Part shown: positions 6,247 through 64,000 of the stretch, piece after piece
How positions within the stretch are numbered: position 1 is the first letter of the stretch
Layout of the letters: the number at the start of each line of letters is the position of its first letter
NCBI GenBank assembly: GCA_026184775.1
Contig: JANCYW010000013.1
Span: 62,001 to 126,000, forward strand
Length of the DNA: 64,000 nucleotides
Reading direction: 5' to 3'
Origin: Cyanidium caldarium
Taxonomy: Eukaryota > Rhodophyta > Bangiophyceae > Cyanidiales > Cyanidiaceae
Translations under genes and position numbers: made by a program
The notes under the pieces: generated by a model
Database searches by the model: none
What the model was told of the DNA's origin: nothing
What the model saw: the letters and a program-made list of their open reading frames with translations, nothing else

Positions 6247-8484
6247 TCAGGTGCGTCTGCCCTCGCCGCCCGCACGGCGCCGCCGCAGCAGCTCCGACGC
6301 GTTGCCCTTGCGAAAAGGCACTTTGACGAACCGCTCCAGCACCACCTCATTGTAGCGCAGCGCGGTGGCGTTGGCCCAAAACTCTGTCAGGAAGTCGTGC
6401 ACGCACTGCGAGCGCGATATGAGGTGCGTGTGGGCGGCGCTGATGCCGGCCGGCCGGCCCGAACCGGGCGTGCCGTAGTCCTCGGCCGGCTGCGCCCCGC
6501 GCACCGCGATCGGCGCCGCGCCACTCATGCCGGTCACCATACACTGACAGGCGATGTCCTCGCAGTTGCGGTGGCGGTCGACGTAGTGGTGAATGCGCTC
6601 ATCGGGAAGCAGGCAGCGGTAATAGAAGAGGTACTCGGAGCGCATGAACATGTGCTTGGTAAGCACCATGGAATAACGACGGTACTTGTCGGCGGATGCC
6701 GTTGACTTGTTCAACGGCTCCGACACCAGGTACTCGTACTTACGTCGCTGTTCGTTGTGGTGGTGGAAGCGCGGAAAGAACCCCACCAGGGTATGCGGCT
6801 GATCCTGCCACACCCGGAAAGCGAAGGCGGTATCGTCGTGCTGCACCCGGATGTCGTCGTCGACGATCAGCACCGCGCGGGTGCGCAGCGCCGTGCCTAG
6901 CGGATTGAACCGGTTGTTCAGCGAATCACGCTGCTGCACCAGCAGCTGGATGCGGCTGCGGGACAGGCCGCGCAACCAATCGGTCGGCGGCGGACGCTGC
7001 GGATCGTGCCACACGATAAAGATCTTGTCGATAAGGCGGTCGGTATGCTCGGTGCTGTCGTTGGAGCGACGCCACAGCGCGTGTCGGTAATGCGTCTGCA
7101 GCAGACGCTGCAGCAGGTCGGCGCGGTCGTAAGTGCCGATCACCACGCTGTAACGGTCGCGTAGCGGAAAGCGCCGCTGCAGGTTGCCGCCGACCTGCCG
7201 CAGTGCCGCGGCCTCGGCATCGCAGTGCCGCTGCACGTCGGGCGGCAGACTCACGTTGCGCACCTCGCGATCCACCTGCATCCACAAGTAATACATCTCG
7301 GGGTCGAGCTGCCGCTCCCAGTCGTGGTGGCTGCTGCGATGCCAGTTCCAGGGCTTGGTCTCGCCGGTGAAATGCAGCACCCGGGTGTGGTTCTCCAGCT
7401 GCGACCACAGCAGGGTGTCGCGATACTTGAGCAGCACGTTGTACGACAGCGGCAAGTGGTGGCGCCGGCGGCCCGACATCCAGCGCTCGCCGAAGAAGGC
7501 GTTGAGGAAGCCCTGGTCGCCCAGGTTATACGAGGAGGTGTTGCGGTACACCTGCAGCATTTGGCGGTAGGTGCGCAGGCGCGGCTGCAGCACCATCACC
7601 CCCGAATTGAACGTATCCGGGTAGAGGTCGGGCGCCGCCGACAGCTCGTCGTACCGGTGGAAGAGGTCATCCAGCGGCCACAGCACCAGCGTATCGCCGT
7701 CTAGGAAGACGATCTTGTCGTATTCGGTGAGCGACCACAGGTGCAGTTTGGAGTAGCGGCACGGTTTGTTGTCCCGCAGGCGGCCGGCGTTCAGGCCGAA
7801 GGGATACGGGAGCGGCGGGCGACGGATGACGGTGCCGCCCAGCCGCTCCAGTCGGTGTTGAGCGGCAGTCGGCAAGTCGGGCGTGGTGAGCACCAGAATG
7901 GGATAGGCGGTGCGGCCGCGGGTGCGCAACGAGTGTAACAGCACCGACACTGCACGCAGCATGCGCGCATCGCCACACAGTAGGGTGGCGTAGGCGTAAC
8001 GCGGCGGGCGGGCGCCGGGCAGGCGCAAGCGCCATCCGCGGAGCGGGTTGGGATGTGGGTGTGGCGCCGACCACAACCGCGTGTACAGCAGCACGGTGAA
8101 GATACAGAGGAACAGCGGCGCCAACCATGGCAGCTTTTGGCAATAGCGTTTCAGCGCTGTGGGCGCAGCCGATCGTCTGCAGGCGCGGGTCCGCGGGCGC
8201 CGCGCCGTACCCGGCCAGCCTTTCGGTGCGGCGCTGCCGCGAGTTGGTGTCTCTTCCTCTGCATCCCGTTGTTTCCGAGTGGAGTGACGCTGGGGATGGC
8301 GTCGCGGGCCGCGCGTCTCGGATCGCGGAGGTCGCCCGGCGATCGCCGTCCCCGCCGAGTGCTCTGTGCTCTCCCGCCTGCTGGCCGATCGCCGCGCCCT
8401 GTTCCGCCTAGTGACGTACGGCGACAGGTAGGGTGACAAGTTGAGCGCCACGTCATTCTCGTGGCGCGTCTCCGAATGGCCCAT
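6247..8484 (-). CDS. Two-domain Golgi glycosyltransferase, GT8-GT64 fusion
   Basis: Type II membrane protein of 745 residues: basic cytosolic tail of about 117 residues, one membrane helix at about 118-136, then two lumenal transferase domains. The first (about 163-415) is GT8, glycogenin-like: metal-binding DGD at 262-264, FNSGVMVL, YNLGDQGFLN, and HFTGETKPW at 371-379. The second (about 445-720) is GT64, the exostosin C-terminal type: VVIGTYDR, VDDD at 541-544, and a C-terminal Cys-containing half with SQCVHDF. Each domain keeps its nucleotide-sugar-binding acidic motif, so both may be active. Known plant families with these folds act in succession on inositol phosphoceramide (GT8 IPUT1 adds glucuronate; GT64 enzymes add mannose or N-acetylglucosamine), so a bifunctional head-group synthase is a fair guess, not shown. 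Start at 8484; the frame runs on upstream without a better ATG. Confidence 0.85.
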   Translation of the reverse strand: MGHSETRHENDVALNLSPYLSPYVTRRNRARRSASRRESTEHSAGTAIAGRPPRSETRGPRRHPQRHSTRKQRDAEEETPTRGSAAPKGWPGTARRPRTRACRRSAAPTALKRYCQKLPWLAPLFLCIFTVLLYTRLWSAPHPHPNPLRGWRLRLPGARPPRYAYATLLCGDARMLRAVSVLLHSLRTRGRTAYPILVLTTPDLPTAAQHRLERLGGTVIRRPPLPYPFGLNAGRLRDNKPCRYSKLHLWSLTEYDKIVFLDGDTLVLWPLDDLFHRYDELSAAPDLYPDTFNSGVMVLQPRLRTYRQMLQVYRNTSSYNLGDQGFLNAFFGERWMSGRRRHHLPLSYNVLLKYRDTLLWSQLENHTRVLHFTGETKPWNWHRSSHHDWERQLDPEMYYLWMQVDREVRNVSLPPDVQRHCDAEAAALRQVGGNLQRRFPLRDRYSVVIGTYDRADLLQRLLQTHYRHALWRRSNDSTEHTDRLIDKIFIVWHDPQRPPPTDWLRGLSRSRIQLLVQQRDSLNNRFNPLGTALRTRAVLIVDDDIRVQHDDTAFAFRVWQDQPHTLVGFFPRFHHHNEQRRKYEYLVSEPLNKSTASADKYRRYSMVLTKHMFMRSEYLFYYRCLLPDERIHHYVDRHRNCEDIACQCMVTGMSGAAPIAVRGAQPAEDYGTPGSGRPAGISAAHTHLISRSQCVHDFLTEFWANATALRYNEVVLERFVKVPFRKGNASELLRRRRAGGEGRRT

Positions 8485-8794
8485 CTCACTCACTCCGCTC
8501 TGGGGACGTTGTGTCCAGAGACGCGAGTTGCAGACAAAACCGAAACGCCGTTTCTCGCGCCAGCTCACGTCGCCGGAGCACTTTCGGTTCGGTGGTGATC
8601 CGTCGGACCGACAAGAACCGACGATAACCACAGGATAGGCGGCGTTCAGGAGGGACACCACGCGCCGCGAAGGGCAGACGACCCGCACATGCCTCTTTAT
8701 GTTCGCCATATGGACAACACCGACCGAAGTACCGTTCTCGTATTCCACAGCAGCTACCCGTCGCAACCCCTCCCGTCTCCCTCCTCATTGCCTT
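8485..8794. other. Intergenic region, glycosyltransferase / GST
   Basis: Upstream region of the minus-strand glycosyltransferase and 3' flank of the minus-strand GST. Nothing else recognised; possible codons upstream of the glycosyltransferase start do not resemble a protein family. Confidence 0.45.
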
Positions 8795-50820: not shown

Positions 50821-52788
50821 TCACTCCTCTTCCCGCTTCTCGCTCTCCCGCTCCGCCTCCGGCTCGGCCACTCTGACCGGATGCGGATATCGCGCGCGCA
50901 GAATGCCATACACCGAGGCGTACTCGTGCAGGTGCGTCTTGGCGGTGGCACCGCGAAAGGGCCCGATCTCGCCGCCACAAAACACGCCCGACACCGGTGT
51001 GGACATGTAGCGCGACACCTCGAACGACTCCACGTCGCGCTCGCGGAAGAACAGCTCGCCGCGTTCCATGCACGGGAAGACGCAGGCGCCCACCGGCGGG
51101 TTGGCTTGCCCGCTCAGCAACCGGGTGAGTTGCTCACGCTTGTAGTTTTGCAGCGCGTGCTCGACAGTGCTGCGGGCGGCCGCCGCGTCCATCACGAACA
51201 GGCGCAGACGCTGGCCCGGCTGTGCGCCGTTGGCGATGGCCACCGCACCATCGCGCAACGACACCCCGAACACCTGCCGAATGGCATACTGCGACGCCGC
51301 CAGGCGCTCGTCCGCATCGGAGGGCGGTGGCGACGGGTCCCGGGAGCGATCCGATCGGCGGCGGCGTCGGTTGCCATCGGCGGATGAGGGCCGGCGTTTG
51401 CCATCGGCCCGACGTCGCTCATCTCCCGATTCTTCTGACGAGGACGATGGCGGCGGTTGAAACACCGCCCCGATCGGCTCCTGCGCCACGCCCACCAGCA
51501 ATCGATTCGCCACCAATCGCCGATCCCCCTCGTCCAACTCGGTGATCACGTCGCGCAGCACGCCTACCACCGTGTCGGTGCGCTGCGAGGTGGCATTCTC
51601 CAGCTCGTAGATGAGATTGCCCATGGCACGGCGCACGTAATACGTCGGCCCGATCGGTCGACACGACGGCACCACCAACGCATCCACGGCCACGTTGCCG
51701 GTGAGCGCCACGCCCACACACCCGAATGGATACATCGCGCCGCGCTCCGGATGGAGCAGGTCGCGCGGCATGGTGCAGAACAGTTGTGGACGCACGCCGA
51801 TACGCGGAACGCCCTCGGCGGTGACAAAATCGGCGCGCTCGCCCGCCTGCGGCTCGCACGAGTGCGCGGCGGCGACGGCGCCGACTTTGGTGGCATGCGG
51901 AAAGGTGAAATCCATCCCGGCGAGAAACGCGTCCAGATCGCCGTGGCGCATGAAACTCGGCTCGGCGAACAGGAACAACGCCTGCAAAGCGTCGGGCGCA
52001 TGCGGGTCCACCGGTGCACCCGCCAGCGCCCGGGTGGAAGTGACAGCCGCCTCAGTCGGAACGGCAGTGGCAGCGTGCGGACGGCGTGCGCCCCATATCA
52101 ATCGATGCCAGGCGTCCTGTCGCGCATCCAAACCGGGAAGATCGCTGCGCTCTACCTGAAACACTTGCATGCCAACGTCACCGGGCAGATACACCAGCGT
52201 CAGACTCAGCGCGCAGTCACGACGACGTCGACGCCGATGATGGGCGTGCGCATTCTCGTCTTCGCTCTCACCGCTGCCGCTCGCTGATATCGCGGCACGC
52301 GTGATGGCCTCGTTCGCCTCCACCTCCATCGGAATGCCGCTGGTGGTGGTGCCGATCACGCCGGCGCCGGTGCAGCCAATAATGCGCACGTCGTTGGGCA
52401 GGCGTTGTCGCAGACGCGGCACCAACTTTTCCAGGGCGCCCTCGCTGCGCAACGCAGCACCCAGGCTGGTGCTCCGCAGCCGATACCCGGTGGAGGCGAA
52501 CACGATGGCCAGCCGCGGTCGCGCCTCCCAGTTCTCGGCGTCTGCCCCAGTAGTCGGATGGGTGCGCGGAAGTCGGGCCATCGCCATATCCACGCACTCG
52601 TCGGCCGCCTTCTCGATGTCCTCCTCGGTGGAGATGGCCGACGCGAAGGCGATCTTGTCCGGGTCGCCGCGCAGAAACTCCTCCTCGTAGTCGCGGAACG
52701 GTTGAAACACCTCCTCCCGAGCGGCACGACGCGGACCAACCGCTTCGTGGGCGTCATCTTCGCGGTCGCAGTCACCGCCCCGGGCCAT
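50821..52788 (-). CDS. FIST-domain protein
   Basis: FIST domains (FIST_N and FIST_C) are ligand-sensing modules best known from bacterial signalling proteins and some algal/plant F-box proteins. In 655 residues: FIST_N with FASAISTEEDIEKAADE, RLAIVFASTGY, and the Gly-rich signature RIIGCTGAGVIGTTTSG at about 135-151; an acidic/His-Arg insert near 175; then FIST_C with FVMDAAAARSTVEHALQ and PVSGVFCGGEIGPF, followed by the ending THLHEYASVYGIL. A basic/Ser-rich insertion (about 485-540) interrupts the C-terminal half. No F-box or kinase domain. The ATG at 53070 would add 94 residues rich in Arg/Ser/Thr/Ala that could be an organelle leader; I kept the start next to the conserved part. Confidence 0.82.
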   Translation of the reverse strand: MARGGDCDREDDAHEAVGPRRAAREEVFQPFRDYEEEFLRGDPDKIAFASAISTEEDIEKAADECVDMAMARLPRTHPTTGADAENWEARPRLAIVFASTGYRLRSTSLGAALRSEGALEKLVPRLRQRLPNDVRIIGCTGAGVIGTTTSGIPMEVEANEAITRAAISASGSGESEDENAHAHHRRRRRRDCALSLTLVYLPGDVGMQVFQVERSDLPGLDARQDAWHRLIWGARRPHAATAVPTEAAVTSTRALAGAPVDPHAPDALQALFLFAEPSFMRHGDLDAFLAGMDFTFPHATKVGAVAAAHSCEPQAGERADFVTAEGVPRIGVRPQLFCTMPRDLLHPERGAMYPFGCVGVALTGNVAVDALVVPSCRPIGPTYYVRRAMGNLIYELENATSQRTDTVVGVLRDVITELDEGDRRLVANRLLVGVAQEPIGAVFQPPPSSSSEESGDERRRADGKRRPSSADGNRRRRRSDRSRDPSPPPSDADERLAASQYAIRQVFGVSLRDGAVAIANGAQPGQRLRLFVMDAAAARSTVEHALQNYKREQLTRLLSGQANPPVGACVFPCMERGELFFRERDVESFEVSRYMSTPVSGVFCGGEIGPFRGATAKTHLHEYASVYGILRARYPHPVRVAEPEAERESEKREEE

Positions 52789-53410
52789 GACGGGAGACGT
52801 TTGTCGCCGCGTCCACCGGGCACGCATAGAGGTGAACTGCCGTCTTCGTCTGAAGGGCGTCCATCGCACGGTGCCGTTACCGTTCGGTGCACGGCAGCCA
52901 CAGCTCGTGACTCCCGCCTGTAGCCCTCGCGTCGCTCTAGACGACAAGGCGGCCGCGATGACAAACGACACTGAACGAACCGCGGCCGCGTCCGCCTTCA
53001 CGTTCGACCTCTCACGTTCGTGCGTCCCCGTCCCTGGCGACAGTTTGACCACCATTTCCGCTGACCGCATCGAAATCTGCTCTCCTCAAGGTGACGGCGG
53101 TTCTCGACTACCCCGTCTGTTCCAGACGACGCCCGCAGTCTACACACACACGCACACGCGCACACACGCACTCACACACGCCACCGGGTGCACGGAGGTC
53201 CTCGCCCCGAACGGCCCACCGCCTACCGCCGATCCGCGCACCGATCCTGCACGCGAGCACGTCGGTGGGGCGGCGACTCGGGATGCGCGGCGTCTTCTCA
53301 CCCATATCCGAAACCGTCGATACCTCCTTGCCACCTCTCTACCACAGAGTCCGACGCCTTGGGCGCTCCCCGTTCATCGACCAGTTTAGTCTCTCTACTC
53401 AGCTCTGCTT
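52789..53410. other. Intergenic region, FIST gene / GCL
   Basis: 622 bp. The left half may encode a leader of the FIST protein (open frame from ATG at 53070). A CA-rich tract lies at 53141-53180. No other gene seen. Confidence 0.45.
53141..53180. repeat. Imperfect (CA)n tract
   Basis: About 40 bp of CA/CG alternation with interruptions, in the gap between the GCL 3' end and the FIST 5' end. Such purine-pyrimidine alternation can adopt Z-DNA; nothing else marks it as functional. Confidence 0.8.
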
Positions 53411-55939
53411 CTATTCTTTCCACACCTGCCGACTGGCCTGGAAAGCCCAGAGGCCGCCACCATCGGCTTCGGTGGGCGAGGCCAGTGGCGAGGTGTCGCC
53501 GCGCTCACCGCCTGTCATCACCCCGGTCGCCTCCGACAGTCCCAATAGGGTGGTGGCGGCGGCGTGGTGGAACCCGTCCACGAACGATTCCCCGCGCAGC
53601 ATCGGGGAGTCGCGGTCGTGCTGCTGCGTGCGCAGTTCGGAAAATTCCTGCGAGCTGATGCCGCGCGCCATCATGTGCTTGGGCCAGAACTCGCCCAGCA
53701 GCGCCGGCTCGCTACGGTTGCCGTCGGCGATGTCCACGCAGGCACTCATCAGATCGTAACATACCTCGGCGCTGATGCGCGAATCCTTGGCGTACCCCGG
53801 GTGCGCCTCGATAAAGTGGCGCATCCACTCCGCGCACGTTTGCAGACGGCCGCTGGCGCGCGCAGACACGAAATCCAGATACGCTCCCAGGCGATGTCGC
53901 GTGAAGCTGTCGATACCGCGCATGGCGTCCAGGTAGGCGCGCGCAAGCGGGATCAGCCCCGGGTAAGCGTTGCGGTACGAGTGCTTCTCGCAGCACGGCT
54001 TGCCGTTCATGATCTCATCCACCGACATCAAGTCCGTGGCGTCGGGGTCGGGATCGGCACAGAAGCGGAAACCACAGCACGGCGGTTTGCCGCTGCGGTT
54101 GCTACCGCCGTTGAGGCAGTTGCCTTCGCGGGCGGCGCTCATGCTGCTGAAGCAGATCTGATGTGTCTCGCCACACGCGCAGCGGTAACCGCCGGATACG
54201 GAGGCGCTCAGCTCCACCTCGCGCGCAAAAACGTGCTTCCGAAACCAGAACCGACCCTCCCGCACCGCGCCACGTCGATGCGCCTCGCCCATATTGGCAT
54301 CCACCCGGGAGACCGGGATGTACAGGTTCATGCCGAACGCCAGGATGCAGCGCGACAGCAACACCATGAACACGGTAAAGGCGGCGTTCTCAAAGTCGGT
54401 CAGTTGCACCTCCATCGGCCGAAACTCCGTCCGCCAACCCGCACTCCCGCGTGGGTTGGCGGACGGCGGCGGCTTGAAGCGCACCGTATTCCAATTGGTG
54501 GACTGGATGTTCTCAAAGTGCACCATGCTGGTGCGGTCATCCACCGATTCACAGTCATCGAATACGACCAGTGGATCGCGGATGAACAGATGAGCAATGT
54601 GGCGGGCGAGTCGCTCGTCCACTCCGCCCTGCAACAGGCGCTCATAGCACGGCGGATCGATCGGCACCGGCACGTCGTTGTACAGCTCGGGTTTCATCTC
54701 CGGTCGCGTGCTGATGAAGCAGTCCGCCGACGAATAGCGAGATTTGGGCGGCAGCTGTCGGGCGATCTCTTCGGGCGTGCGGTCGTCCACGGCGGCGCTG
54801 ATCACATCCCACCGCACGTCGGTGTCAAGCAGCCAGCCGCGCAGCGCCGGGGTGGCCGCGGTCAGCGCCAACATAATCGGCGCCAACACCGCCAGCTGGT
54901 CGTACAGCCAGCGCCCCTCGTCCATATTGGCGGCTTGCAAGGTGAGCTGCAGACAGCTGAGGCCCATGCCAAACCCCATGGCATCCATGTATACCGAGTC
55001 GGTGGCCACCGGACCGTCTGCACACCGCTGCTCGATGCTGGCCAGACCGGTGCGCCGGCAGAAGCATTGCGCCACATCACTCTGCGGATCCCGCACGGCA
55101 ACCGCAGCGCTGGATACAGGGGAGGCGGTGGCCGCGGGCCATCCGTCGGTACTCTCCGCCACCTCCTCTCGATGGTGTTCCTCTCGCTCTATCCGATCAT
55201 CCAACGGTGCCCGCACAGCACCGTCGATAACCACACAGGCGCCATGGCGTTCACCGCCCTCCCACACCGGCACGCGCGCTGGGGTGTGCGCGTCGCGATA
55301 CAGCGGCATCCGGATGTCCACCGGGCCGCCCCGCCGCAACCGAATATTCCGCGTCAGTGTCCCGAAGCGTGGATGCGGATTGATCACCGCGTCCGGCAGG
55401 TATAGCGAGCGCGCCAACGGCCCGCACACGCCGCCTCCGCTCGGCCGGGTGAACACGCCGCAACCGATGCGCGGATAGCCGGCCACGCTCACCACGTGCT
55501 CCTCCGGCCGTAACAACTGCTGAATCTGCTCCCGCCGCAGCATCATATTCTTCTCCACCAGCATCAAGTCGCTCACGTAACAGGCGTACGGCTCGCCGGG
55601 CGTGCCCTCCACCATCCAGTTGGCGTACTCCGGCCGCCACAGCGTCTCCACCGGCGCCGGCGCCCCGTCCGCAACGTCGTCTGCCGCCGCCAACTCCGCC
55701 CGCTGCAATTCAGCGATGATTTCCGGCGCCCGCAGCGACAAGTACGACACCCGCTGCACATCGTCCAGCACCACCACGGTGTACTCGATCTCGTCGCCCC
55801 ATTTCAACACATCGCCCTGTCGGTTCCGCGTCGCCCAATACACGTTCAGAAACTGCTCCACCCCGTGCTGCCGGACATAATTCAAGTGCGGTATCGCATC
55901 CCACCACGTCAGCGGCCGACCACTGGCCAGCAGGCCCAT
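53411..55939 (-). CDS. GCL: Glutamate-cysteine ligase, animal/fungal type
   Basis: First and limiting step of glutathione synthesis: ATP-dependent joining of glutamate (gamma) and cysteine. The start MGLLASGRPLTW and the active-site motif KWGDEIEY (Glu50, Glu52) are those of the animal/fungal catalytic subunit. Further signatures: INPHPRFGTLTRNIR, YMDAMGFGMGLSCLQLT, SADCFISTRPE, SIQSTNWNTVRFKPP-like block and DDRTSMVHFENIQ. 842 residues versus about 640 in animals, due to inserts near 225-312 (low complexity) and about 530-640, where a Cys-rich stretch (CACGETHQICFSSM, CCGFRFCADPDPD) occurs that could bind metal. Plants and green algae use an unrelated-looking proteobacterial-type enzyme, so this gene is informative about lineage. 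Confidence 0.94.
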   Translation of the reverse strand: MGLLASGRPLTWWDAIPHLNYVRQHGVEQFLNVYWATRNRQGDVLKWGDEIEYTVVVLDDVQRVSYLSLRAPEIIAELQRAELAAADDVADGAPAPVETLWRPEYANWMVEGTPGEPYACYVSDLMLVEKNMMLRREQIQQLLRPEEHVVSVAGYPRIGCGVFTRPSGGGVCGPLARSLYLPDAVINPHPRFGTLTRNIRLRRGGPVDIRMPLYRDAHTPARVPVWEGGERHGACVVIDGAVRAPLDDRIEREEHHREEVAESTDGWPAATASPVSSAAVAVRDPQSDVAQCFCRRTGLASIEQRCADGPVATDSVYMDAMGFGMGLSCLQLTLQAANMDEGRWLYDQLAVLAPIMLALTAATPALRGWLLDTDVRWDVISAAVDDRTPEEIARQLPPKSRYSSADCFISTRPEMKPELYNDVPVPIDPPCYERLLQGGVDERLARHIAHLFIRDPLVVFDDCESVDDRTSMVHFENIQSTNWNTVRFKPPPSANPRGSAGWRTEFRPMEVQLTDFENAAFTVFMVLLSRCILAFGMNLYIPVSRVDANMGEAHRRGAVREGRFWFRKHVFAREVELSASVSGGYRCACGETHQICFSSMSAAREGNCLNGGSNRSGKPPCCGFRFCADPDPDATDLMSVDEIMNGKPCCEKHSYRNAYPGLIPLARAYLDAMRGIDSFTRHRLGAYLDFVSARASGRLQTCAEWMRHFIEAHPGYAKDSRISAEVCYDLMSACVDIADGNRSEPALLGEFWPKHMMARGISSQEFSELRTQQHDRDSPMLRGESFVDGFHHAAATTLLGLSEATGVMTGGERGDTSPLASPTEADGGGLWAFQASRQVWKE

Positions 55940-56205
55940 CGCTGAGGGCAACGCAGTCTCCCGGTGGGCACTACGGCGCTGCAGCCACACCGCTTCACCG
56001 AAAACGGGCCCGCGAACGGTTCCGCCTCAACGCGTGGACGCCGGGCGCACCTCCCAGACCGAGGCACCGGGTGGGAGCTGGTGGTGAGCAGGAGGTGGAA
56101 AAGTCGAATAACCTAGTAACGGGGAGTCGGTCGGGTTGTGGTGCAAGGGGTAGAGGTGCGCGACTCGAGCTCCGTTGCAGACAGGACGTTCCAGTGCTTT
56201 GCCCC

Positions 56206-58718: not shown

Positions 58719-59702
58719 ATGTCCACTTTCAAAGCGGTCGCGAGGCAGTTGAAGCGGCAGGCGAAGCCGTCCACCCGCGCCTACTGTCAGGTGTGCGCGC
58801 GGCAGTTTCGCGACAAGCGTGCGCTGCGCAGCCATCAGCAGACGGTGGCGCATGAAGCACGAGAGCGGGCGCTGGGGCCGACGCCGCAGGACGTGGTGGT
58901 GCTGTTCTCGGAGCGGTTCGTGGGGCAGTTTATGGGTGAGTTGGCGCGGCAGGCGGCTATGTCGCGTATGCCGCACCGGGCCGTGATGGCAAAACGAGTT
59001 TACGATGCGTTGGTGGCGGATCCGGAGCATGTGCGGCTGGCGGCGACGCAGTGGCCGTCGCTGCAGGCGTTCTTGCAGTGGCTGACGGTGCACCGCGCCG
59101 ATCAAGTGGCCTTGCTGTCGGTGATAGAACCCGAAGAGGCGGTGGCAGCCTCGGAGCGCTGGCTGGTATGGCTGGGCAGCGGCGACCGCGATGTGCCCGC
59201 GGCCGCATGGACGGCACGCGAGCGCAACCGCCGACGACTCGCCGCCGAAGAGGCCGATGAGGCATTCACCACCACCACGACGATCGTCGCACCGAGCACG
59301 GCATCCGCGGTTGCTTCGGGCGGCCTGGATGAGCGCCGCGTCGAGCAGGTGATCGACTCGCTGCGAGAGGCGCGGCGGCAACAGCGTCTGGGACGCCTCA
59401 CCGGAGCGTCACCCGATTCCCGCACGGGGGCCGCGCCCGGCGCCGAACGATCCCTCGCCTCACCGCCGCTGCTGCAACACGGGGACCGAGTGCGGCTGGC
59501 GCGCGTGCACATCGACCGTGGACGCTTTCGTGACCGAATCGGGCAGGTGCTGGGCGCGTGCTCGGACATCAGCCCCTACGTGTTCGATGTCGAGGTGTGC
59601 ATGCTGCCCGAGGAACGCAAGGCGTACGTCTTGCGCGTCGACCAAGACGACCTGGAGCGGTTGCGCGAAGCGCCGTCGCGGACCGATGACGCAACCCGGT
59701 AA
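58719..59702 (+). CDS. KIN17: KIN17 nucleic-acid-binding protein
   Basis: KIN17 binds curved DNA and RNA, is recruited to chromatin after damage and is found in spliceosomes. 327 residues: C2H2 finger at about 22-46 (YCQVCARQFRDKRALRSH, Cys23, Cys26, His39, His45); the atypical winged helix just behind it (VLFSERFVGQFMGEL, RVYDALVADPEHVRLAATQWPSLQAF at about 99-124); a Glu/Arg-rich helical linker; and a C-terminal KOW-like beta domain (GDRVRLARVHIDRGRFRDRIGQVLG ... YVLRVDQDDLERL). This order is unique to KIN17. Shorter than human KIN17 (393) because the linker and the region before the KOW part are reduced. The ATG at 58719 is the first in frame. Confidence 0.9.
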   Translation: MSTFKAVARQLKRQAKPSTRAYCQVCARQFRDKRALRSHQQTVAHEARERALGPTPQDVVVLFSERFVGQFMGELARQAAMSRMPHRAVMAKRVYDALVADPEHVRLAATQWPSLQAFLQWLTVHRADQVALLSVIEPEEAVAASERWLVWLGSGDRDVPAAAWTARERNRRRLAAEEADEAFTTTTTIVAPSTASAVASGGLDERRVEQVIDSLREARRQQRLGRLTGASPDSRTGAAPGAERSLASPPLLQHGDRVRLARVHIDRGRFRDRIGQVLGACSDISPYVFDVEVCMLPEERKAYVLRVDQDDLERLREAPSRTDDATR

Positions 59703-59779: not shown

Positions 59780-60439
59780 TTATTCCAACGACTTTTGCGC
59801 AATGCGGCGTACGCGTTTCTTGTACTGCGTGTAGTTGGTCGAGAACAGCTGCGCGGCTTCCGGGTTGGCCGGCGAGTTGGGATTCGGATCGGTCAGCAGA
59901 CTTCGCACCGCCGTCAAAATACTGGACACGCTGTACGCAGCCGACCAGTTCTCATTCAGCAGCGATAGGCACACGTTGCCGTCGCTGTACACGTTCGGGT
60001 GGAACATCTCGCAGGTGAAGCGCACTCGCGGCGGCTTGTCCGGATACTGCTCCGGAAACGTCAACCGCAGCGTCAACACCGCGTTCTCCCACTCGGAATT
60101 CTCCGGACCAATCACCGTCGCCCACCACACGTACATATCTGTGTCGCTGGCCGCAGTCGAGTGCCCGCACCGGCCGGCACCGCCCACGTCCCCAACGGTT
60201 AGTCGCTCGTCCGTCACCCCACGCCTCGCCCTACCCCGCTCGCCGTCCGCTCTCCACCACCTCCACTTACTGTCTTCGCTCACCGGCGCTGCCGAACAGC
60301 CGTCCGGCGGGTCCTGCGCCATAGCCCGCAGGTCGGCCGCCAATCGCAACCGCGACGAGCGCGAACTCGCCACCTGGTCCGCCTTGCGCGCCGCGCTCCT
60401 CGACGCGCCCGTCGACGACGACGGCGCCGGTGCCGACAT
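59780..60439 (-). CDS. RAD6-like ubiquitin-conjugating enzyme E2, two exons
   Basis: E2 of the UBE2A/RAD6 group, which ubiquitinates PCNA, histone H2B or N-end-rule substrates with cognate E3s. Coding sequence is complement(59780..60138, 60271..60439), with one intron at 60139..60270. The spliced protein has 175 residues: a Ser/Ala/Arg-rich extension of 28, then [20 protein letters not shown], the [10 protein letters not shown] and FHPNVYSDG blocks, active-site Cys113 in [19 protein letters not shown] and the NPNSPAN motif. Splicing restores the RAD6-like ...[15 protein letters not shown]... junction. If the intron is kept, the frame stays open and 44 unconserved residues are inserted. RAD6 is the best fit; other E2 classes are less likely because of the NPNSPAN motif. 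Confidence 0.88.
60139..60270 (-). other. Spliceosomal intron (132 nt) in the RAD6-like gene
   Basis: On the minus strand the intron begins GTAAGTGG (60270 downward) after GAAGACA, and ends CGACACAG at 60139. A CTAAC branch sequence (in GACTAACC, 60204-60197) lies with its branch A about 60 nt before the 3' splice site. The exon junction splits an Asn codon (A|AT) in phase 1. Removal aligns the product with RAD6 without a gap, while the intron codes for no conserved residue. Length is a multiple of three and contains no in-frame stop. Confidence 0.87.
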
Positions 60440-60756
60440 GGATCCCCACCTATCCCCTCAGCGTGTCCAAACCCGCACTCCACGCTCCTGTCGCCCTAAC
60501 GAGTCTACTCGGCGCCTCCCTCGCGCCCACCGCCCCGACCCACCGACGTGCGCGCGCGCGCGCGCCTCCGAACCGACGCCTTCGCGCAGCCGCCAGGCGT
60601 TCCGATTCGCGCGCGCACGATTCGATCCGATCTCAGCCGGGGGGCGGGGAAACGGTTTGCTGGCGCGGACCGTTGCCCGGTCGTGGTCGTCGCTGCCGTG
60701 AACCGACAGACAAGGTGTTCCGTGCCGGTGTGTGTGTGTGGGGGGGGGGTTATCGT
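60440..60756. other. Divergent intergenic region, RAD6-like / UvrB
   Basis: The UvrB frame is open back to 60430, but the residues are Arg/Pro-rich and the ATG-initiated start at 60757 is more natural. A TGTGTGTGTG then G10 run sits at about 60729-60749, 8 bases before that ATG. No RNA gene seen. Confidence 0.45.
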
Positions 60757-63456
60757 ATGCTTTCCGGGCGCATGGCCTGGACGGTGATAGCCTTTCTGAG
60801 TCCGATTCGGTGGACGGGATGGGCACTGGCTGGAGGCGGGCGCGGTGGGAGCATCGGGCGGGCTGCGGTGCGCAGGTGGGGATGGCGGGCGGATGGATGG
60901 CGCGTTCGGGGGCTTTCGCAGCCGCCTGCCCGCGGCTGGCGGTGGCATTCGACGTCGGCGATGGTCACTTCGTCGGCTAGGTCTACGGCGCGGCGAAAAC
61001 GCGGCAGCGCCAAGGAGGTGGTGGGCGTCGACGGGCTGTTGCTGCCGCCGGAGGATGCGGCACTGAGGCGATGCATCGAGGCGGTGTGTGCGGGCACGGC
61101 GGTGCCCAGCGGTGCACCGGTACGTAGCGTCAAGGCGTCGCGCAGTATGCGCTGGTATGCGCAGTCGGACGGTGCTGCGCTGGTGGTGGCGGTGGCTCGT
61201 CGGAGTGCCTTTCGGGAGCGCGACGCCGAGCGGCTATTGTCGCTGTTGGAGACTGGTCGCGGTGAGCGGTCGGTGGCGGTGCTGCTGTTCGGTGCGCGGA
61301 TGCATCCGACGGCGCGAAAACGGTTGGAAGAGGCACGCGTCGTGGTGCACGAATATCCCGAGTGTGCTGGTTTCCCGGAGACGAGCGTGTGGGGGCGCGT
61401 GCCGCCGCCGGAGCCGGAGAGCTGCACCGATGCGCGGCTGCGAGCGCATTTCGACTCGATGCCGCCGGCCGCGTTTCAGCTTCAGGCGCCGTTCGCGCCC
61501 ACCGGCGATCAGCCCGAGGCCATCGAGCAGGTGGTGCAGTCGCTGACCGACCGGCGCTTTGTGGCCCTCAAGGGCGCCACCGGCACCGGGAAGACGTTCG
61601 TGATGGCCAACGTGATCGCCCGCACCGGTCGGCCGACGCTGGTGTTGGCGCACAACAAGACGTTGGCGGCGCAGCTGTTTCGGGAGCTGCGTACCTTCTT
61701 CCCCGACAATGCGGTGCAATACTTTGTGAGCTATTACGATTATTACCTGCCGGAGGCGTACGTCAGCGTCACCGACACCTACATCGAAAAGTCGGCCAGC
61801 ATCAACGAGGACATCGAGCGCTACCGCCATGCGGCCACGCGGGCGCTGTTTGAGCGCCGCGATGTCATCGTGGTGGCGTCCATCTCGTGCATCTACGGCC
61901 TCGGCTTGCCGTCGGAGTACCTGCGCGCCGCCAAGCGCATCGCCGTGGGCGACGCCCTGACGCCCACCGCGCTCGCCCGCGTGTTGGTGCAGTTGCAATA
62001 CGTGCGCAACGATGTGGAACTGGAGCGCGGCAGTTTCCGCGTGCGCGGCGACACTGTCGACATTGCGCCTCCCGCCTGGGACGAGGAAGACGCGCTGCTG
62101 CGGGTGGAATTCTTCGGCGGCTCGGTCGAGTCCGTCGCCTACATCGATCGCCTGCAGGCCACTGTGCTACGGCGCGTCGATCAGGTGTTGACGTATCCGG
62201 CGCGCCACTTTCTCACCCCGCCCGAGGAGCACGAGCGCGCCCTGCAGGCCATCGAGCGCGAGATGCAGCACTGTGTGTCGCGCTTCCGCACGCAGGGCAA
62301 GCATTTGGAGGCGGAGCGGCTGGAGCAGCGCTCCCGCAACGATTTGGAGATGTTGCGCGAGTTTGGCTACTGCACTGGTGTGGAGAATTACTCGCTGCAC
62401 CTGAGCGGCCGATCGCCCACCGAGCCGCCCGACTGTCTTTTGGACTATTTTCCGCCCGACTGGCTGCTGATTGTGGACGAGAGTCACGTGACGGTGCCGC
62501 AAATACGCGGCATGTACTTTGGCGACCGCTCGCGCAAGGAGAATCTGGTGCGGTTCGGTTTCCGCCTGCCGAGCGCGTTGGAGAATCGACCGCTGCGTGA
62601 GACCGAATTCTGGCGCAAAGTGCGCCACTGTCTGTTTGTGTCGGCCACGCCGGGTCCGATGGAGCTGGAGCTGGCGGCGCCGGCGCTCGTCGAGCAGACC
62701 ATCCGGCCGACCGGCGTGCTGGACCCGCTCGTGCGCGTGCACCCCACCCGGGGGCAGGTGGAGCATCTGTTGCAGGAGATCGAGGCGCGGGTGCAACGCG
62801 GCGAGAAGGCGCTGGTGACCACGCTGACCAAACGCATGGCCGAGGAGCTGTGCACGTACCTGCGGGAGCGGCGCGTGCGCGTCAGCTACCTGCACTCGGA
62901 GCTAGACGCGCTAGAGCGGGTGCAGGTCTTGTCGGCGCTGGCCACCGAGGCGTGCGACGCCATCGTCGGGGTGAATCTGTTGCGCGAAGGCCTCGACTTG
63001 CCGCAAGTGAGTTTGGTGGCCATTATGGACGCCGACAAGGAGGGATTTCTGCGCAGCGAGACGTCGCTGATTCAGACCATCGGGCGGGCAGCGCGACACG
63101 TGCGCGGCGAGGTGGTGCTTTACGCGGACACGGTCACGGCGTCGATGCAGCGGGCGTTGCAGGAGACCGAGCGACGGCGCGCGATTCAAGAGGCGTACAA
63201 TGCGCGGCACGGCATCACGCCACGGCCGATCGAGCGGCGCACGGGAGCGTACTTGGAGCGGCGACAGACGCATGCCGCAGCGGCGACGAAGAGTCGGCAT
63301 CCGCGCGCCGAGACCGAGCCCACCTGGTCGCGCCTCAGCGACGACGCGTTGCAGGCGGCCATGCGCGCCGCGGCCACCCGCCTCGAATTCGAGGACGCTG
63401 CCGCCATCCGTGACCTCCTGAAGAGGCGCCGCGAAGGGGACCGCAGTCCCGAATGA
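60757..63456 (+). CDS. UVRB: Bacterial-type excinuclease subunit UvrB with N-terminal extension
   Basis: UvrB is the damage-verifying helicase-like subunit of bacterial UvrABC nucleotide excision repair. Residues from about 240 to the end of the 899-residue protein are a full Uvr[16 protein letters not shown], Walker A GATGTGKT (273-280), the damage-clamping beta-hairpin [11 protein letters not shown] (326-336), SCIYGLG, the domain-2 region with [35 protein letters not shown]-like block, [36 protein letters not shown], and a C-terminal UVR helix hairpin ([16 protein letters not shown]) that docks UvrC. The first 85 residues are Arg/Trp/Gly-rich and nearly acid-free, fit for an organelle leader. 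Residues 86-235 form an extra domain not found in bacterial UvrB. Base composition matches the neighbours. Confidence 0.92.
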
Positions 63457-63533: not shown

Positions 63534-64000
63534 TCACACCTGGAGTTTGACCTGGGCGGTGCGCGCCTCTAGCGCGCCGCTCAGGGTGGCCACCACCGCC
63601 TCGCCGATGGCGTTCACGTCGTAGCCGCCCTCGAGACAGAACACCACCGGCACCTCCGGTCCGAACCGTTTCACCAGCAGCCGCGCCATCTCCGCGTAGT
63701 CCTCGGCGCGCAGTTCCAGGTGAGCGAGCGGATCGCTGGCCAGCGCGTCGTACCCGGCCGACACCAACAGCAGATCCACCCCGGGCGCGCCTTCACCATT
63801 CACCCCGTGCCACAGGTGATCCAGCGCGCGCGCATACGCCTCTGCGTAGCCGTTCTTCCAGCCGGTGCCGGCCGGCAGCGGAAAGTTGGCCAGGTTACGT
63901 TTCGGTCCGTGCTCCTGCGGATCGTCGCCGGTCATCGGGTACAGCGGCCATTCGTGCAGGGAGGCGAAGCGCACGCGCGGCTCGCCACGCACTGCATTCT
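63534..64000 (-). CDS. Class II histone deacetylase, C-terminal part (runs off the window)
   Basis: Zn-dependent lysine deacetylase fold, incomplete: the frame continues past position 64000, so the N-terminal half is missing here. Visible parts: VRFASLHEWPLYP (strand before the metal site), GTGWKNGYAEAY, the metal and substrate region DLLLVSAGYDALASDPLAHLEL with its Asp, and the C-terminal LEGGYD. The SLHxxPLYP and SAGYDA forms are those of class II (HDA1-like, incl. plant HDA5/HDA14-type) and acetylpolyamine amidohydrolase-like proteins rather than class I RPD3. The C-terminus LEARTAQVKLQV is short. Confidence 0.85.
   Translation of the reverse strand, partial: NAVRGEPRVRFASLHEWPLYPMTGDDPQEHGPKRNLANFPLPAGTGWKNGYAEAYARALDHLWHGVNGEGAPGVDLLLVSAGYDALASDPLAHLELRAEDYAEMARLLVKRFGPEVPVVFCLEGGYDVNAIGEAVVATLSGALEARTAQVKLQV

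Follow-up and report, generated by a model that had tools for sequence, protein, structure and literature searches.

The window analysed here, a 64-kb stretch of Cyanidium caldarium DNA taken as a whole, carries a uvrB gene that is one uninterrupted ORF and lies between two genes of eukaryotic type (Table 1). Its first in-frame ATG is at 60757 and its stop codon ends at 63456. As the second methionine is residue 6, the start could be Met1 or Met6, and a longer reading of 1008 aa begins upstream at 60430. The UvrB part of the 899-aa protein is its C-terminal 661 residues, which are preceded by a basic leader and by an extension that contains a small additional domain.

Table 1. Features of the uvrB locus and the evidence on which each is placed.
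Feature	Position	Strand	Details and evidence
RAD6/UBE2A-type E2 gene	59780-60439	-	Pfam, splicing, alignment to UBE2A/UBE2B/RAD6 chains
Spacer separating the start codons of the E2 and uvrB genes, which lie head to head	60440-60756		317 bp; candidate shared promoter region
uvrB	60757-63456	+	One uninterrupted ORF, 899 codons/aa, no intron
Basic leader, possible transit peptide	60757-61041	+	Residues 1-95, predicted unstructured; charge, low pLDDT
Extension: small alpha/beta domain (about 98-200) and linker	61042-61470	+	Residues 96-238; two structure models
UvrB core, including the UVR hairpin close to the C-terminus	61471-63456	+	Profile, PDB-chain, invariant-column and model evidence
Walker A, GATGTGKT	61573-61596	+	Residues 273-280
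YYDYY, damage-binding beta-hairpin	61732-61746	+	Residues 326-330
UVR motif	63385-63414	+	Residues 877-886
Histone-deacetylase-family gene	63534-63998	-	PF00850, 1.9e-20; cut by the window end

The first-pass annotation had described the gene as flanked by a RAD6-like gene with a spliceosomal intron and by a class II HDAC gene. The former description is borne out, as the E2 gene has an intron of spliceosomal type (60139-60270, 132 nt) with a GTAAGT donor, an ACTAAC and a CAG acceptor, and its spliced product aligns unbroken along UBE2A, UBE2B and RAD6 chains. The ACTAAC starts 65 nt before the intron end. Because the intron length is divisible by three and no stop codon interrupts the frame within it, an unspliced reading would resemble one longer protein. 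For the other neighbour, membership of the histone-deacetylase family holds (PF00850), while the label “class II” is plausible but not proven, since a chain named lysine deacylase leads the PDB matches, followed by HDAC6 chains. On its two sides uvrB is separated from these eukaryotic neighbours by 317 and 77 bp. Farther away, the window encodes a KIN17-like protein, RPN7, a RIO kinase, Ras, an NSUN-type methyltransferase and a glutamate-cysteine ligase, together with DXR and ThiC, which are likely plastid enzymes. The glutamate-cysteine ligase (53414-56026) is of the PF03074 type, which is known from animals and fungi rather than from green plants. One ORF of this eukaryotic nuclear window (50824-53085) contains a FIST N and a FIST C domain, a pair most familiar from bacterial sensory proteins, and another (6250-8784) combines family 8 and family 64 glycosyltransferase domains. 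With the KIN17-like gene (58719-59702, +), the E2 gene and uvrB, three genes linked to DNA damage or to damage signalling adjoin one another, an adjacency that may be due to chance in a genome so dense.

Published figures for Cyanidium caldarium are a genome of 8.73-8.79 Mb with 65.7% GC, 4,870-4,930 genes (one per roughly 1.8 kb) and 44-46 introns (PMC13353863, Table 1). The window has about 66% GC overall and contains at least one recognised intron, along with 38 ORFs of at least 200 codons, a greedy count that serves as an upper guide because some are surely not genes. Its GC content, its gene density, its small number of introns and the plastid genes on it agree with Cyanidium caldarium as the probable source. 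GC content lies between 63 and 69% in 2-kb steps across the window with no step at uvrB, segments around the gene have 60-70%, and there is no N in the sequence. The telomere repeat printed in PMC13353863, AATGGGGGG, is absent from the window, which is uninformative given that 0.36 occurrences are expected by chance. The codon usage of uvrB correlates with that of ten pooled host genes at r 0.957, and the ten host genes left out singly gave r 0.889-0.972. Four cyanobacterial uvrB genes set against host codon usage gave 0.42, 0.48, 0.15 and 0.00. Read one or two bases out of frame, the window gene gave 0.80 and 0.46, and its leader and extension alone (238 codons) gave a lower value of 0.705. 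With eukaryotic neighbours, an adjacent intron and host codon usage, uvrB belongs to the nuclear genome, and the neighbours, the lack of a GC step and the codon usage point to a long-standing gene of the eukaryotic nucleus. A recent insertion of plastid DNA was considered and judged unlikely, as both GC content and codon usage of the gene are nuclear.

By profile and motif, the protein is a member of the UvrB family, a family already known. It matches TIGR00631 (uvrb) at 936.5 bits against a curated cut-off of 750.1, over residues 349-998 of the 1008-aa reading and as far as profile position 655 of 658, and the Pfam families UvrB_inter, UvrB and Helicase_C all score above their gathering thresholds, the UvrA-interaction domain (PF17757) at 86.2 bits. 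Solved UvrB chains in the PDB match it at 3e-233. Pfam gave no separate UVR match at E <= 0.001; the UVR motif itself starts at residue 877, and the hairpin has its invariant columns at 869-886. In bacteria this motif binds UvrC. Together with DESH at residue 574 and QTIGRAAR at residue 773, these results confirm the earlier claim of a complete UvrB core with Walker A, beta-hairpin, helicase motifs and UVR hairpin. The structure prediction is confident for most of the core; its confidence is low at the hairpin (328-346), at residues 830-855 and in the leader. We also compared the protein with 136 bacterial UvrB rows, the number left once duplicates and rows no longer than 580 aa had been removed; some genes occur twice among them, trimmed differently at two loci. 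It keeps 105 of the 107 columns invariant across these rows, and under the same treatment 4 of the 136 bacterial rows depart at two or more. At the 154 columns conserved in 98% of the other rows it departs at 4, where the other rows have a mean of 1.0, a median of 0 and a maximum of 7 departures (9/136 with four or more). The columns invariant in 27 sequences include residues in the UvrA-facing domain and in the UVR hairpin, which we take to be partner interfaces.

Between the leader and the core lies a domain of about 100 aa that was absent from the first-pass annotation. Over residues 98-200 or thereabouts, both structure models give a helix, three strands, a helix, a strand, a helix and a strand, at moderate to low confidence. 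Foldseek returned 715 matches to a model of this domain with a mean pLDDT of 54, none of them at E <= 0.001, and the leading rows were MspJI, EndoMS and RPB5 (E 0.019-0.12), amounting to a weak fold likeness to restriction-endonuclease-like folds, which in the case of RPB5 concerns its N-terminal domain. A homology to RPB5 had been suspected by eye, but the sequence similarity to human RPB5 does not rise above that of shuffled sequences (1660 and 1689 of 2000 shuffles scored as high) and we rejected it. Searches of Pfam and NCBIfam and with phmmer gave no convincing family, and the Pfam and NCBIfam scans showed no RPB5 or PD-(D/E)XK family; phmmer paired the extension with T-cell receptor chains (best E 0.031 and 0.014) and NCBIfam with TIGR00540 (E 0.011, far below the cut-off), matches that we judged to be chance. 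Among 145 loci with a UvrB, no best alignment begins before residue 206, so the extra domain is unreached. Five contigs of a viral collection carry near-full-length UvrB loci (L153-L157) at 44-47% identity, which may be viral, prophage or flanking bacterial genes, and their matches start at residue 239-240 and thus without leader or extension. The extra domain is possibly specific to this lineage.

The N-terminus was earlier described as a basic leader, which its composition upholds: the first 60 residues carry +10/-1 charges, and pLDDT stays below 50 across residues 1-102. A positive charge by itself says little, since the N-termini of the KIN17-like, NSUN and amidase proteins share the same net +9. 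Of 17 proteins compared, just three, namely UvrB, ThiC and a Rieske protein, contain at most two acidic residues among the first 60, with the second methionine chosen as the start for ThiC and the Rieske protein, which suggests that the shortage of acidic residues says more about the UvrB leader than positive charge does. An early Phe is shared by DXR, ThiC and the Rieske protein with KIN17, NAPRT, RIO and a squalene-synthase-like protein, and a basic N-terminus or early Phe is thus not confined to plastid candidates, as likely non-plastid proteins show them. The RWHSTSA stretch of the leader would suit a mitochondrial presequence too. Judging from the leader, UvrB is probably a plastid protein, and we keep this as a prediction because an early Phe is not plastid-specific and RWHSTSA also suits the mitochondrion.

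To whom this UvrB is related can be read from several comparisons. A scan of genome contigs with the window protein found at least 80 loci, the best 25 of which are titled cyanobacteria (55-58% identity). A strong UvrB match is present in 113 of 117 cyanobacterial genomes, with weak ones in four, and the best match among them is in genome G091 (62%). All eight genomes of the order that contains G091 and G123 have 61-65% identity to the window protein, and 65% is the highest identity to any bacterium compared. We take this order to be the Gloeomargaritales, an order that has been recovered elsewhere as sister to plastids. The first-pass annotation had proposed building a UvrB tree that includes cyanobacteria, and in all four of our maximum-likelihood trees the window UvrB stands beside the whole of this one order, as its sister and not inside it, with support of about 90-96. 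The rows of these trees were hand-chosen from the 145 loci with a UvrB, window included, and the window protein is the sole algal UvrB in the taxon sample. Support for the grouping is SH-aLRT 96 in the 64-row tree, 92/93 (bootstrap/SH-aLRT) in the 43-row tree, and 95/90 and 91/92 in two trees of 35 and 32 rows that have no outgroup. The branch of the window UvrB is very long (1.88-2.55) and its composition deviates. In AU tests, whose groups were defined after the tree was seen, one of six alternative placements was rejected (p 0.0067) and five were not (p 0.222, 0.227, 0.089, 0.066 and 0.051). Of these five, two place the protein within other groups of cyanobacteria (p 0.066 and 0.089) and one puts it next to the locus L089 (p 0.051).

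Marker residues point in the same direction as the trees. Among the photosynthetic cyanobacteria compared, the window UvrB shares 12 of the 41 residues that mark the G091/G123 order, for which ten rows stand for eight genomes, against 6/42 for a picocyanobacteria-like pair and 1/6, 0/2 and 0/1 for three other sets. It also shares 3/10 with a deep pair, and as these residues occur in 24-62% of the other rows they look ancestral. As a control we used DXR and ThiC from the same window in 25 genomes, five of them from the order. Both match cyanobacteria best, yet the five genomes rank 15-19 of 25 for DXR and 5, 13, 14, 17 and 19 for ThiC among the 24 genomes with a match, while for UvrB they rank 1-4 and 16, the last being an incomplete gene with the highest identity, 65%. 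As DXR and ThiC favour other cyanobacteria, the affinity of UvrB does not reflect a general pull of the genome to that order; for the same reason, the two enzymes add no support for a plastid ancestor near it. Descent of uvrB from a lineage next to the Gloeomargaritales is moderately supported by these comparisons. Two details of the cyanobacterial loci may be recorded here, both from genome G002: on contig C69 (32785-36208, L025) dxr directly adjoins uvrB, and the uvrB match is interrupted by a short in-frame insertion around query residues 405-413.

The locus therefore holds an intact UvrB ORF among eukaryotic genes, with host-like codon usage and cyanobacterial affinity. Compared with cyanobacterial UvrB (TIGR00631, nearest in the G091/G123 order), it has in common the whole core, the motifs and the C-terminal hairpin at 61-65% identity, and it differs in being nuclear, in its host codon usage, and in its basic leader and extra domain of about 100 residues. 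On sequence grounds, it is this nuclear eukaryotic copy with a plastid-ancestor-like affinity, a leader and an extra domain that is unusual for a UvrB. Our preferred reading, to which we give a probability of roughly 60%, is that endosymbiotic gene transfer brought the gene into the nucleus from the cyanobacterial ancestor of the plastid and that its product is targeted by the leader to the plastid, where it would act as in bacteria. The leader would direct UvrB into the plastid, UvrA would load it onto distorted DNA, the UvrB motor and beta-hairpin would verify the lesion, and UvrB would then recruit UvrC, which would make two incisions. As UvrA-facing and UVR residues are among the invariant columns, leader-bearing UvrA and UvrC genes would be expected elsewhere in the genome. 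According to PMC5101192, every cyanobacterium tested has uvrABCD, and its uvrA and uvrB do not form an operon.

The first-pass annotation had read the gene as part of an organelle-targeted bacterial repair system gained from the plastid ancestor or by later transfer, and it is the plastid-ancestor origin that the cyanobacterial affinity, the recurrent, modestly supported grouping with one order, the host codons and the intact residues support. A cyanobacterium sharing the habitat of the alga could instead have passed the gene on at a later time by horizontal transfer, with a product that may serve the organelle or the nucleus; this origin is possible but not favoured. The five AU alternatives that stand, those within other cyanobacteria and beside L089 included, leave room for it, as do the window's DXR and ThiC, neither of which favours this order. 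Against it, the sister position outside the order in 4/4 trees, the long branch and the host codon usage indicate an old event, and PMC7660906 counts UvrB as one of the most vertical genes of prokaryotes. Going further than the plastid-ancestor reading, one could imagine a full UvrABC system in the red-algal plastid, nuclear-encoded since primary endosymbiosis, with a lineage-specific N-terminal domain of RPB5- or nuclease-like fold gained by UvrB and a control region shared with the RAD6-type gene beside KIN17 that wires plastid and nuclear damage responses together, an elaboration we consider rather unlikely.

It is likewise doubtful that UvrB was kept without UvrA and UvrC, as a helicase-like protein of the mitochondrion, plastid or nucleus that took on a new role, perhaps through its extra domain. 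The failure of alignments in 145 related loci to reach that domain would fit such a role, and Arabidopsis offers a precedent for single retained parts in its lone plastid-predicted Mfd relative (PMC6981420), but the UvrA-facing and UVR residues retained across 27 sequences are hard to explain without partners. The Arabidopsis Mfd/TRCF relative, which is linked to bacterial nucleotide excision repair, encoded in the plant nucleus and predicted to be plastid-targeted, resembles what we propose for UvrB; the difference, in the account given by this review, is that flowering plants are without UvrA, UvrB and UvrC, whereas the alga has a full UvrB. Finally, a bacterial-eukaryote chimera or contamination of the contig, which the first-pass annotation had named as a reason to discard its reading, is very unlikely and was rejected, as at the sequence level there is no N, no GC step and no codon break around uvrB beside its eukaryotic genes, the codons are host-like and unlike those of cyanobacterial uvrB genes, no close relative was found among the bacteria compared (best identity 65%), and the gene has a long basic leader and spacers of 317 and 77 bp.

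Of these readings we return to a nuclear UvrB from the plastid ancestor to place it in the literature. The review cited above holds that plant organelles seem to lack nucleotide excision repair (PMC6981420), and a 2006 survey of GIY-YIG proteins gives the UvrC/Cho group as bacteria and some archaea (PMC1564403). Within openly licensed PMC literature we found no description of a eukaryotic UvrB and no paper on Cyanidioschyzon and UvrB, and database records annotated as red-algal UvrB may well exist. Uvr or excinuclease terms do not occur in the main text of PMC6629376, PMC13353863 or PMC9812998. A Porphyra EST paper lists “uvrA” beside hsdM, recF and transposase (PMC3207994), and with such company we read that EST as probable bacterial contamination.

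If the UvrB of this alga did come from the plastid ancestor, the pathway would have been kept, in part or as a whole, through primary endosymbiosis in at least one lineage, and a nuclear gene would join the evidence bearing on the identity of the cyanobacterium that gave rise to the plastid. Transformation of Cyanidium caldarium has been described (PMC13353863), and excision repair in organelles could then be tested directly in an alga that is transformable and has a tiny genome. The intact nuclear UvrB suggests that the chloroplast may still repair its DNA in the bacterial way.
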